Shown here: positions 493 to 4,609 of the stretch, piece after piece
How the letters are laid out: each line of letters begins with the position of its first letter
Numbering within the stretch: position 1 is the stretch's first letter
Assembly: GCA_023251215.1 (NCBI GenBank)
Contig: JAHEZF010000014.1
Span: 1 to 15,132, forward strand
Reading direction: 5' to 3'
DNA: 15,132 bases
Source: Sphingobacteriales bacterium
Lineage (GTDB): Bacteria; Bacteroidota; Bacteroidia; Chitinophagales; Chitinophagaceae
Program-made: the position numbers and the translations under genes
The notes under the pieces: model-generated
The model's database searches: none
What the model was told of the DNA's origin: nothing
Seen by the model: only the letters and a program-made list of their open reading frames with translations

Positions 493-1536
493 ATGAAAAA
501 TGTGCTGAAGAATATCCGGACACTAACAAAACAAAACCTCGAAGATTACTTTGAAATTCTCGGCGACGAAAAATTCCGCGCAAAACAAGTATATGAATGG
601 CTCTGGCTGAAACCCGTTCAAAGTTTTGATGCCATGACCAACCTGAGCAAAGAGCTTCGTAATAAATTGAAAGAAGATTTTTTGTTGCCGGGTTTAACCA
701 TAGATGCTACTCAATTTTCAGAAGATGGAACTATAAAAACACGATTCAAAACACACGAAGGACATTTAGTAGAAGGAGTGTTGATACCAACCAAATCAAG
801 ATATACCGCCTGTGTTTCTTCACAGATAGGATGTTCTCTCAGTTGTAAATTTTGCGCTACCGGTTATATGGACAAAAAAAGAAACCTAAGTTTTGATGAA
901 ATATATGATGAAGTAGTTATTATCAACCAGCAGTGTGAAAAAATACATGGAAAGAAACTGACCAATATTGTTTTTATGGGAATGGGTGAGCCTTTGCTGA
1001 ATTATAAAAACGTTCTGAGAGCTATCGAACGCATCACTTCGCCTGACGGCCTGGGCATGAGCCCAAGGCGGATCATCGTTTCCACAGCCGGGGTTGCCAA
1101 ACAGATAAAACAATTGGGTGATGACAAGGTAAAATTTAAACTGGCTTTATCACTTCACGCAGCAAACGACAGGAAGCGGCATGAGATCATGCCCATCAAT
1201 GATACCAACAATATTAAATCGCTGGTAGATGCTTTGAATTATTTTTATAAGGAGACCAAAAACGAGATCACATTTGAATACATCCTTTTCAAAGATTTTA
1301 ATGACTCATTAAAAGATGCTGATGAACTGATAAAACTTTATCGCCAGGTTCCGGTTGACCTGGTAAACATCATTGAATACAATCCCATTGATTTTGCAAA
1401 ATTTGAAAAGCCAGAGGAAGAAAAGATTGAAGCTTTTATAAATTACCTGGAAAAGCACCGGATAAATGTCCGCCTTCGCAGAAGCCGTGGTAAAGATATT
1501 GATGCGGCTTGCGGGCAGTTAGCGAATAAAAATTAA
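493..1536 (+). CDS. rlmN: Dual-specificity RNA methyltransferase RlmN
   Basis: Radical SAM enzyme that methylates C2 of A2503 in 23S rRNA and of A37 in a subset of tRNAs, in the cytoplasm. The 347-aa length is normal for the family. The N-terminal accessory domain (about 1-95) is followed by the radical-SAM core. CSLSCKFC (Cys114, Cys118, Cys121) is the CX3CX2C motif that holds the 4Fe-4S cluster. GMGEPLLN (163-170) is the SAM-binding GGE-like motif, and SLHA (220-223) is conserved. Cys107 in ACVSSQ and Cys340 in DAACGQLA correspond to E. coli Cys118 and Cys355; the latter carries the methyl intermediate. All key residues are present, so the enzyme should be active. ATG 493 sits 7 nt after a TAACTTTG box. 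A diverged second copy of the 3' end, including the Cys340 codon, lies just downstream. Confidence 0.97.
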   Translation: MKNVLKNIRTLTKQNLEDYFEILGDEKFRAKQVYEWLWLKPVQSFDAMTNLSKELRNKLKEDFLLPGLTIDATQFSEDGTIKTRFKTHEGHLVEGVLIPTKSRYTACVSSQIGCSLSCKFCATGYMDKKRNLSFDEIYDEVVIINQQCEKIHGKKLTNIVFMGMGEPLLNYKNVLRAIERITSPDGLGMSPRRIIVSTAGVAKQIKQLGDDKVKFKLALSLHAANDRKRHEIMPINDTNNIKSLVDALNYFYKETKNEITFEYILFKDFNDSLKDADELIKLYRQVPVDLVNIIEYNPIDFAKFEKPEEEKIEAFINYLEKHRINVRLRRSRGKDIDAACGQLANKN

Positions 1537-1546
1537 TGCTTCGGTG

Positions 1547-1626
1547 GATAAATCCGCCTCCGCAAAAGCAGAGGTAAAGACATAGATACAGCCTGTGGGC
1601 AACTGGCTAATAAAGACAGTCATTAG
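1547..1626 (+). pseudogene. Orphan second copy of the rlmN 3' end
   Basis: Starting 10 bp after the rlmN stop, the sequence repeats the end of rlmN beginning at GATAAAT (compare 1461). In the same frame as rlmN, codons 1555-1626 read RLRKSRGKDIDTACGQ then LANKDSH and a TAG stop, against RLRRSRGKDIDAACGQ and LANKN in the intact gene. Over the 21 shared codons I count 16 base differences. Nine of the 12 changed codons are synonymous and the three amino-acid changes are conservative (R/K, A/T, N/D). The copy has no start of its own and is cut off from rlmN by stop codons at 1534 and 1549. It diverged while it was still coding, so it looks like the tail of another rlmN allele left by recombination or by a lost inserted element. 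Confidence 0.85.
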
Positions 1627-1680
1627 CATTTAATACCCGGTTATTCCTGTTTTTTTCCTTCTACGAAAAAATTCTTAGTA

Positions 1681-1693
1681 TTGGTTAAACCAA
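1681..1693. repeat. 13-bp palindrome TTGGTTAAACCAA upstream of the Spy-like gene
   Basis: Perfect dyad TTGGTT-A-AACCAA. The one-base centre and weak stem make it a poor RNA hairpin, so an operator is more plausible than a terminator, although a short T-run follows (1697-1702). It lies about 100 bp before the Spy-like gene and shares GGTT/AACC half sites with the dyad at 1752-1767. Function is inferred only. Confidence 0.3.
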
Positions 1694-1747
1694 CCCTTTT
1701 TTATGCTGTCTGTAATTTGATCAATTTATTAATAAACAAGCCCTGCC

Positions 1748-1776
1748 GGAAGGTTTTATTCAAAACCAGCGTCTAA
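1748..1776 (+). promoter_or_regulatory. Candidate ECF-sigma (RpoE-like) promoter for the Spy-like gene
   Basis: GGAAGGT (1748-1754), then 15 nt, then CGTCTAA (1770-1776). This resembles the RpoE-type ECF pattern GGAACTT-N15/16-nGTCTAA: five of seven bases match at -35 and the whole -10 matches. Transcription would begin near 1781 and leave a leader of about 15 nt. A perfect inverted repeat GGTTTT-ATTC-AAAACC (1752-1767) occupies the spacer. No TAnnTTTG box is visible in this gap. An ECF promoter would fit an envelope-stress gene. The match is by eye only. Confidence 0.4.
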
Positions 1777-1795
1777 AATCAAAACATTTACAATC

Positions 1796-2413
1796 ATGAA
1801 AAAGATAATTTTATTCCTGCTGGTTCTTTCAGCAGCCGTTGCCGTTAATGCCCAGGATATGAAACATCGCATGCATCCTGGCATGAGAAAGCATCATGAA
1901 ATGATGATGAAGCAACTAAAATTAAGTGAAGATCAGAAAACAAAATTCCATTCACTAAACGAAGATTTCCGGAAACAATTAATGGATCTGAAAAAGAACG
2001 AGGATATTACAGTGAGGGAATTGAAAAACCGAATGAAAACATTGCACAAAGATCATAAAGAAAAAATAATGGGATTGCTGACTGTCGATCAGAAAGCAAA
2101 AATAGAAAAAATGAAAGCTGAACATAAAGCCATGCAGGAAATAGACGCAAAGGCAAGACTGGAAAAAATGAAGATCAGTCTCAGCCTCACAAATGAACAG
2201 GCGGACAAGATAAACAAGAACCGCCTGGAAATGGCTGAGAAAATGAAAGCCCTTCGGGAAGATGATAAAATGGATATGGAAAAGAAAAGAGAACAAATGA
2301 AAGAACTTATGAAACAACAGAAAGAAAAAATGAAATCCATCCTGACAGCGGAACAATTTGAAAAAATACAGGAATTCAGGCCTCCAAAACCACCAAAAAG
2401 AGAAGTAATGTAG
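1796..2413 (+). CDS. Spy/CpxP-like periplasmic protein with tandem LTxxQ hairpins
   Basis: A 205-aa secreted protein. The N-terminus (lysines, then a hydrophobic stretch ending VNAQ at residue 20) is a type I signal peptide, so it should act in the periplasm. A Met/His-rich segment (21-39) follows and could bind metal. The remainder is very charged, helical and Lys/Met/Glu-rich. Four L[ST]xxQ motifs occur: LSEDQ 43-47, LTVDQ 95-99, LTNEQ 131-135 and LTAEQ 183-187. The first and third, and the second and fourth, are both exactly 88 residues apart, so the protein is two copies of a Spy-like unit. Spy and CpxP are envelope-stress proteins of about 140-160 aa; Spy is an ATP-independent chaperone and relatives such as ZraP and CnrX bind metals. 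The client or metal here is unknown. It has its own terminator and an ECF-like promoter candidate. Confidence 0.75.
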   Translation: MKKIILFLLVLSAAVAVNAQDMKHRMHPGMRKHHEMMMKQLKLSEDQKTKFHSLNEDFRKQLMDLKKNEDITVRELKNRMKTLHKDHKEKIMGLLTVDQKAKIEKMKAEHKAMQEIDAKARLEKMKISLSLTNEQADKINKNRLEMAEKMKALREDDKMDMEKKREQMKELMKQQKEKMKSILTAEQFEKIQEFRPPKPPKREVM

Positions 2414-3488: not shown

Positions 3489-4211
3489 AAATTTGAAGAA
3501 TTAATCGTTTATGAAAATGGTGATTTTATTGCATTAAATAAACCTGCGGGTTTATTGTCCATTCCCGGCAGGGAGGGAAAAGAAATATCATTAAAAAAAA
3601 TATTGCTGGAAAAATACGGGCAGATATTTACCGTACACAGGTTAGATAAAGACACCAGCGGCCTGATCGTTTTTGCAAAAAACGAAGCGGCACATAAGAG
3701 TCTTTCACTGCAATTTGAACGGCGGGAAACAAAAAAGATTTACCTCGGATTGGTAATTGGCTCTCCGGCTGATAAAAAAGCAAGTATTAATTCAGCAATT
3801 GCAGAACATCCCGTTCATAAAGGAATGATGGTCATTAACTCTAAAGGCGAAGAGTCGTTGACAGATTATGAGGTGCTGGAAGATTTTGGAATTTACTCCT
3901 GGTTACAGTTTCAGCTACATACCGGACGAACACACCAGATACGGGTGCACATGAAACACATTGACCACCCTGTTGTTTGTGATGAGCTATATGGAGACGG
4001 CAAACCTTTTTTTATTTCTTCCATAAAAAATAAATACAAGCTTTCTAAAAATGAGGAAGCAGAAAAACCGATATTAAGCAGGCTGGCTCTTCACTCCTGC
4101 CAACTTGGATTTACTGACGTATCCGGATTACCTGTTGAGCTTACCGCACCATTACCCAAAGACCTGAGAGCAACATTACAGCAACTAAAAAAAAGAAAAA
4201 ATGGAATATAA
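3486..4211 (+). CDS. RluA-family pseudouridine synthase
   Basis: A 241-aa catalytic-domain-only member of the RluA family, which makes pseudouridine in 23S rRNA and/or tRNA. VHRLDKDTSGLIVFAK (50-65) is the RluA signature with catalytic Asp54, and FQLHTGRTHQIRVHM (142-156) is the second strongly conserved motif. HPVVCDELYGDGKP (161-174) is the usual third block. There is no N-terminal S4 domain, unlike RluC and RluD. The exact target (RluA-, TruC- or RluC-like) cannot be read from the sequence. The ATG lies 16 bp after the rluB stop, so the two genes are probably cotranscribed. Its stop is 2 bp from the stop of the convergent osmC-like gene. Confidence 0.92.
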   Translation: MKFEELIVYENGDFIALNKPAGLLSIPGREGKEISLKKILLEKYGQIFTVHRLDKDTSGLIVFAKNEAAHKSLSLQFERRETKKIYLGLVIGSPADKKASINSAIAEHPVHKGMMVINSKGEESLTDYEVLEDFGIYSWLQFQLHTGRTHQIRVHMKHIDHPVVCDELYGDGKPFFISSIKNKYKLSKNEEAEKPILSRLALHSCQLGFTDVSGLPVELTAPLPKDLRATLQQLKKRKNGI

Positions 4212-4213
4212 AG

Positions 4214-4609
4214 TTATTCTTTTATCAATATAGAATAATCAATCGGGGAATTTTTTTTGAGCATGGCAGAAACGCCACAATATTTTTCGAGCGAAAGATC
4301 AATGGCCTTTTTCACTTTGTCCCTGTTCCCATTTGCAGTTTTTACTTTATAAGTAAGATGTATCTCCTTAAATACCTTCGGGTTCTCTTCAGTTTGTGTG
4401 GTTTCAGCGTCAATTTCAAGATCAGAAAAATGAACCCTCATTTTTGTAAGTATATCCACCACATCAATGCCCGAGCATCCGGCCAGGCCGGAAAGCAACA
4501 GCGATTTGGGACTGATACCATGTTGCCGGCTGCCGTCAATATCTATTGAATTGTGATCCTGGTAGCTGGTAAAACGGTGTTCTTTTTTCCAGATTGTTGT
4601 GGTCTTCAT
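4214..4609 (-). CDS. OsmC family protein
   Basis: A 131-aa OsmC/Ohr/YhfA-type protein. The family's two reactive cysteines are present: Cys45 in LAGCSGID, at the start of the central helix, and Cys111 in EKYCGVSAML. Ohr and OsmC reduce organic hydroperoxides through this pair, while the YhfA-like branch is poorly characterised; the sequence (no Ohr-specific motif seen) looks closer to YhfA. The start codon overlaps the stop of the upstream transporter gene as ATGA (4606-4609), which implies translational coupling and cotranscription. It is convergent with the RluA-type gene, with 2 bp between stops. Family is confident; substrate is not. Confidence 0.88.
   Translation of the reverse strand: MKTTTIWKKEHRFTSYQDHNSIDIDGSRQHGISPKSLLLSGLAGCSGIDVVDILTKMRVHFSDLEIDAETTQTEENPKVFKEIHLTYKVKTANGNRDKVKKAIDLSLEKYCGVSAMLKKNSPIDYSILIKE

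Follow-up and report, generated by a model that had tools for sequence, protein, structure and literature searches.

The rlmN Locus and Its Second Tail

The window, by which we mean the whole stretch of 15,132 nucleotides that was analyzed, lies on contig C172 of a draft Sphingobacteriales genome (G000; 72% complete, 345 contigs), and no other genome with the same genus code turned up among the genomes searched. Near its start the window encodes an intact rlmN, followed by a second version of the end of that gene and then by a spy-like gene (Table 1). When the genome was searched with the RlmN protein, the gene itself and one extra match were returned, the latter at 1552-1617 with 82% identity to RlmN residues 326-347 (E 4.3e-5). 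We refer to the last conserved codons of the gene as T1 and to the extra copy as T2. T2 lies 84 bp 3' of T1 in the same frame, and its stop codon occupies 1624-1626. A codon alignment of T1 with the corresponding part of T2 (1552-1614) reveals differences at 15 of 63 bases, in 12 codons and in 3 residues (V/I, R/K, and A/T); nine of the 12 changed codons are synonymous, and the Cys codon reads TGC or TGT in the two tails. The preliminary description of this DNA had reported a second, in-frame copy of the last 21 rlmN codons with the Cys codon and its own stop, and had counted 12 changed codons, nine of them synonymous. The copy is confirmed by the codon alignment and by the own-genome match, and the alignment returns the same counts.

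Table 1. Features at and behind rlmN in the window.
Feature	Position	Strand	Basis
rlmN, 23S rRNA/tRNA adenine C2-methyltransferase, intact, 347 aa	493..1536	+	ORF; Pfam RlmN_N 1.4e-19, Radical_SAM 7.4e-13
T1, last conserved 21 codons of the gene (VRLRRSRGKDIDAACGQLANK)	1468..1530	+	translation, comparison with relatives' tails
Joint between the tails, TTCGGTGGATAAATCCGCC (joint pattern TTCGGYGGAYAARYCCGCC), 19 bases	1540..1558	+	
T2, relic tail (IRLRKSRGKDIDTACGQLANKDSH), terminated by its own TAG, outside the rlmN reading frame	1552..1626	+	
spy-like gene (LTXXQ family), not part of the relic	1796..2413	+	Pfam PF07813 2.4e-5

Because a TAA lies in frame directly upstream of T2, and the T2 frame contains no ATG, GTG, or TTG, we read T2 as untranslated. 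For the other 16 of the 17 genes in the window, a search with the last 27 residues of each (E up to 0.01) found no second tail within the window. A spy-like gene also stands behind rlmN in many of the relatives whose loci were read, and its leader in the window (1627-1795) shares motifs (TACGAA..TTC.TA and a stretch ending GCGTCTAA) with the region preceding spy in several relatives. Farther along, at 2660-2750, the short direct repeats GTCAGGAGTCAGGAGT and AACCAGCAACCAGC lie within the N-terminal linker of rluB, and repetitive rluB linkers also occur in some relatives.

Divergence Between the Two Tails

Between working rlmN tails of different genomes, the median distance is 17 bases in the DNA and 2 residues in the protein (5050 pairs among 101 tails from the fetched loci), and 632 of the 2523 pairs with 13-17 base differences show at least three residue differences. 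These tails were gathered with a looser pattern, and their counts are preferred over those of a narrower set of 70 tails (median 15 bases; at least three residue differences in 50 of 1394 pairs), which was chosen by a pattern fixing several residues, including the Ala for which T2 has Thr. None of the 101 working tails has the I or the T residue found in T2, and the decay of T2 has therefore begun.

Decay was simulated as one duplication, after which the gene copy changed synonymously only and the spare copy changed neutrally, and runs were scored for 15 or more base differences combined with no more than 3 residue differences, a criterion set after the tails had been seen. The T1/T2 pattern arose in at most 2 of 6000 runs at any rate tried, with peak P values of 0.00025, 0.00033, and 0.00033 in three analyses. 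Drawn instead from two working tails, the pattern has a P of 0.63 without later change, 0.45 with two neutral changes, and 0.10 with six. Simple tandem duplication followed by neutral decay is thus rejected, as the spare copy lacks the non-synonymous build-up expected of it. The preliminary description had argued that drift after such a duplication could not give the synonymous bias and that the copies appeared to have diverged as separate working genes; the simulations support the first argument and fit the second.

Differences are mainly synonymous in all six pairs of gene and relic that we found, which come from G000 and from three further genomes (G112, G284, and G508) described below. Under duplication and decay, the P values are 0.0003 for the window, 0.008 and 0.030 for G112, 0.0002 for G284, and 0 and 0.0002 for G508; each is the largest over 13 rates with 6000 runs apiece, and 63 bases were simulated throughout, though the G508 pair on contig C66 has 66. 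An earlier set of runs gave comparable values.

A Tandem Array in a Relative

G112 has three tails at a spacing of 89 bp, two of them behind the gene; the units start and end at identical points, and nothing lies between them. Relative to the gene tail, its second tail has 5 base differences and 1 residue difference, and its third has 4 and 0; G112 is a near-undiverged tandem state. The G112 joint, TTCGGCGGACAAGCCCGCC, is identical to the window joint at 15 of 19 bases. To judge by its letters, it looks like the bases behind the stop codon (..TTCGG) fused to the gene near CGGGTAAATGCCCGCC, which would be a plain tandem duplication. When the joint pattern was searched in G000, G112, and G284 with 2 mismatches allowed, it was present only at the G000 and G112 tails, and a genome-wide repeat can be set aside on that ground. 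A scan of an 84,980-species collection for closely spaced tails, made with an exact pattern whose first copy starts AAAGA, returned only the G112 contig, although that result may omit the record of the window itself.

The head-to-tail repetition of unit and joint by which an array of tandem origin is recognized is thus found in the 89-bp units of G112. Because the joint is common to the window and G112, tandem duplication is likely the first step in the window as well. Tandem duplication had been set aside in the preliminary description; its decay-only version is indeed rejected, but duplication itself now returns as the likely beginning. Between G000 and G112, only 35 of 89 four-fold sites in rlmN are identical, a lower share than in the joint and T2; were the duplication as old as the split of these two genomes, neutral sequence would be expected to have diverged further than the joint and T2 have. 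Base by base, T1 is 9-11 differences from the G112 tails and T2 is 12-14. Two states (the second base of the first codon, and GGT) are common to T1 and T2 but not to G112, and the end of T2, GACAGTCATTAG, matches G356, another relative, and not G112.

Relic Tails in Other Chitinophagales

The tail was matched in 372 of 394 genomes of the family (E up to 10). Besides G000, 22 of these had more than one match, and re-examination of all second matches identified relics in G112 and G284. In the order set, 387 of 396 genomes had a match and two besides G000 had extra ones: G508, which has relics, and G084, where the second match is a contig overlap. Relics are therefore rare, with three genomes among the 372 and one more among the 387. 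Among the other second matches in the family, those of G178, G289, and G325 belong to a second rlmN, full-length in G178 and truncated at the contig end in G289 and G325, while the remaining multi-match genomes gave weak matches only (E 0.1 to 3.4), taken as unrelated. G178, G289, and G325 share genus code g56 (loci L176-L178 and L181-L183), and their two rlmN copies are about 65-67% and 53-58% identical to that of the window; divergent rlmN alleles can therefore meet in one cell. A control search of the 394 family genomes with an internal rlmN segment, at a stricter threshold (E up to 1e-4) than the tail search, gave a second match in 5 of 372 (G178, G229, G230, G294, and G354), which is the full second gene in G178; G294 has two, in frames 243 and 258 residues long. 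At this threshold, G000, G112, and G284 gave no second internal match.

In G284, the order is rlmN, a spy-like gene, the relic tail, a nagA-like gene in reverse, and a phosphoesterase. The left flank through rlmN and spy has the order seen in G044, with flank proteins up to 84% identical, and the genes behind the relic match those behind rlmN in G172, which shares the genus code of G284 (53-77% identical; G172 has one additional reverse frame between rlmN and the nagA-like gene). Because the two sides of the relic carry the gene orders of different relatives, we infer that two rlmN contexts were joined there and one tail was left behind. A single stop interrupts the relic; 11 bases and 1 residue separate it from the gene's own tail, and it is closer to the tails of some other genomes (8 and 9 bases).

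In G508, two tails without a gene body lie on contigs C66 and C63, away from rlmN. They share both ends; relative to the gene, their base differences number 9 and 11 and their residue differences 0 and 1. Among the genus relatives, 0 of 16 have rlmN within 1.5 kb of the loci corresponding to these relics. Several further features of this genome were observed. At 3782-4276 of locus L189, an LGT-like frame (prolipoprotein diacylglyceryl transferase) passes directly into a relic rlmN tail, as if truncated there; a GC-rich interspersed repeat stands beside the C66 relic tail (locus L188) and also near the genes downstream of rlmN on contig C130 (L190). Across 17 species of the genus (L199-L215), the genes directly behind rlmN are highly variable, and few species share a neighbor.

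All six relics start at similar points, about 20-26 codons before the final Lys. This is the sole feature still suggesting site-specificity, and it may be partly an effect of detection, because much shorter pieces would escape the search.

Phylogeny of rlmN and Its Flanking Genes

The nearest full-length rlmN body in the fetched set is that of G356 (87.5% identity), which has a single tail; the rlmN of G332, a fragment with 88.6% identity across residues 174-322, was left out of the rlmN tree. One set of trees also omitted G193, G350, G024, G211, G020, G206, and G284 where present. The rlmN tree assigns the window, along with G356, G112, G327, G206, and G018, to an open group of six (84/44), and the spy tree pairs it with G356 (84/93). 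In AU tests, whose groups were named only after the trees had been seen, a pair of G000 and G356 is rejected by rluB (p 0.030) and the M20 peptidase gene (p 0.042), and a pair of G000 and G112 by rlmN (p 0.048) and M20 (p 0.040), although rluB groups the latter pair weakly (86/32). The tests that involve the window thus fall at p 0.03-0.05. A pair of G356 and G381 is rejected by rlmN at p 2.7e-5 but supported by rluB and M20 (95/93 and 98/99 in two sets of trees), and rlmN has therefore moved within the family; for the window itself the indication is weak.

Breakpoints inside rlmN were sought with seven reference pairs, and none was significant (p 0.073-0.628). The best breaks fell at codons 321, 316, 38, 61, 67, 271, and 176 (p 0.228, 0.129, 0.222, 0.073, 0.403, 0.230, and 0.628), so that two of the seven lie near the tail, neither significantly. 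A mixed origin of the present rlmN, as proposed in the preliminary description, accordingly receives weak backing from the conflict of rlmN with rluB and M20 in the family, but the window itself falls only in the open group of six, and no breakpoint is significant.

Tail trees, which the preliminary description had proposed as a check, are built on 63 columns only, the second with more rows than the first. T2 groups with the G112 tails in both (97/83; 78/80 with more rows). A clade of T1 and T2 is rejected by neither: its score lies 12 log units above that of the free tree in the first (p 0.616) and 48 below it with more rows (p 0.162). Grouping T1 with the G112 tails is rejected with more rows (p 0.027) but not in the first tree (p 0.358). 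Replacement of the gene by another allele, also proposed in the preliminary description, would fit these results, though the tail trees swing and the rlmN tree places the window only in the open group of six.

Origin of the Second Tail

The explanation that we tentatively prefer, at a little under an even chance, is that T2 is non-coding and left over from an older rlmN 3' end that was duplicated in tandem, the gene having since been overwritten by a diverged allele. To judge from G112, the last ~25 codons and a few bases behind the stop would have been duplicated (a unit of 84 bp in the window and 89 bp in G112), leaving the gene with its own end and a spare copy behind it. The gene, including its in-frame tail, would then have been overwritten through homologous recombination with a diverged rlmN allele from a related lineage, while the spare tail, free of selection, would have retained the codons of the older allele. 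Overwriting with the spare tail retained would therefore make the tails look like those of two working genes of different species, and T2 would later have gained a few changes (its I and T residues). Parts of this path are directly visible, namely the relic, the tandem state of G112, the coding-like divergence, and the meeting of two gene orders in G284; the overwriting of the window's gene, its donor, and its timing we infer. Also in its favor are the grouping of T2 with the G112 tails in both tail trees, the conflict of rlmN with rluB and M20 in the family, and the genomes of genus code g56 with two rlmN copies each. Weighing against it are the swings of the tail trees, the shorter distance of T1 than of T2 to the G112 tails, the open group in the rlmN tree, the non-significant breakpoints, the G356-like end of T2, and the close likeness of joint and T2 between G000 and G112.

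A competing account, which we consider unlikely though deserving of real weight, does without a foreign allele: an old tandem duplication would have been inherited vertically, and repeated gene conversion would have kept T2 gene-like until fairly recently. The near identity of the G112 copies (4-5 bases), the joint common to the window and G112, the two states that T1 and T2 share against G112, and the closeness of T1 as well to the G112 tails all suit conversion, as does a clade of T1 and T2 that was never rejected and scored better in one tail tree. However, T1 and T2 are about as far apart as the tails of different genomes, so that conversion would have ceased long ago, yet T2 is little decayed; conversion also leaves unexplained the relics of G284 and G508, which do not adjoin the gene. 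Because the rlmN tree lacks a pair of the window with G356, and one tail tree favors T1 with T2, we gave more weight to conversion and less to overwriting. The rlmN 3' end could also have served as an attachment site for an integrative element that carried in a tail of its own and has since been lost, which we consider improbable. Such an element would suit the alike beginnings of the six relics (shorter pieces would be missed), and PMC9513070 describes an actinomycete element (AICE) inserted, with 11-base repeats, in the rlmN gene of a Streptomyces strain. Against it, a Pfam scan of 17 of 17 window proteins identified no integrase or transposase near the putative att site, nor did scans of six neighboring proteins on three contigs in G508 (where integrases were sought) and of two in G284. 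Of 394 genomes in the family, 372 match the tail, and in none of these was an intact element seen between gene and displaced tail; a distant second tail on the gene's contig occurs only in G284, with a spy-like gene between, and the G112 repeats are 89-bp units with nothing between them. An exact degenerate pattern found the tail in 0 viral contigs, and weak matches came from 10 phage and 2 plasmid records, none labeled Bacteroidota and two of them faecal phage records without a host name. In the five phage records opened, the rlmN sequence extends well past the tail: two from Klebsiella have host genes around rlmN, two faecal ones hold nearly the whole gene, and one from Listeria has an rlmN cut by the record end. 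The lost element proposed in the preliminary description, and the intact one sought at sister loci, thus find no counterpart in these searches. The two faecal records with nearly whole rlmN (L226 and L227; 37-41% identical) are unverified 'Bacteriophage sp.' entries of human origin and may be bacterial contigs.

The remaining readings rank lower still. The similar starting codon of relics in four genomes, together with the G508 copies that share their ends at unrelated loci, could suggest that in Chitinophagales a stretch of 70-90 bp, the final ~22 codons of rlmN, is a small module that moves or is exchanged site-specifically, an idea that we find hard to credit. It is harder yet to see T2 as a functional RNA element or short peptide. 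A small hairpin is possible at the joint in both G000 and G112 and T2 retains a coding look, but folding is ordinary relative to shuffled sequence (z -0.93 for 1534-1626, +0.19 for a G112 unit, and -1.57 for the other strand of the window), the T2 region has no Rfam match, its frame lacks a start codon and follows an in-frame stop, and T2 is missing from the relative G356. A structured RNA or riboregulator was rejected on the folding and Rfam results, and T2 has no evident function. Least probable of all is an artifact of a fragmented metagenome-assembled genome, as the incompleteness of G000 might invite, since the same type of joint recurs in a second assembly (G112) with four base differences.

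Relation to Known Systems and Implications

Three known processes come closest to what is seen here. As in tandem duplication of a gene's 3' end, G112 has near-identical 89-bp units with the same start and end points, but the window's copies are about as unlike as the tails of two genomes. As in xenologous (orthologous) gene replacement with a remnant, a piece of another allele adjoins an intact gene and G284 joins two gene orders; the remnants here, however, are the last 20-26 codons. SCC elements at rlmH are integrative elements that restore the 3' end of their target gene. The loci described here resemble them, and the AICE in Streptomyces rlmN, in that a synonymously altered 3' end stands displaced behind the gene. 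They differ in that the window and G112 have no element, their copies are 84-89 bp apart, and the window encodes no integrase.

Most likely, then, the second tail is a scar of duplication and gene exchange between related bacteria and not an element of a new kind. Such relics leave the annotation of the window's rlmN as it is. The locus is a small example that lends itself to checking: the stranded end of a housekeeping gene preserves a record of another allele, and a spare tail of this kind can help to separate replacement from duplication.
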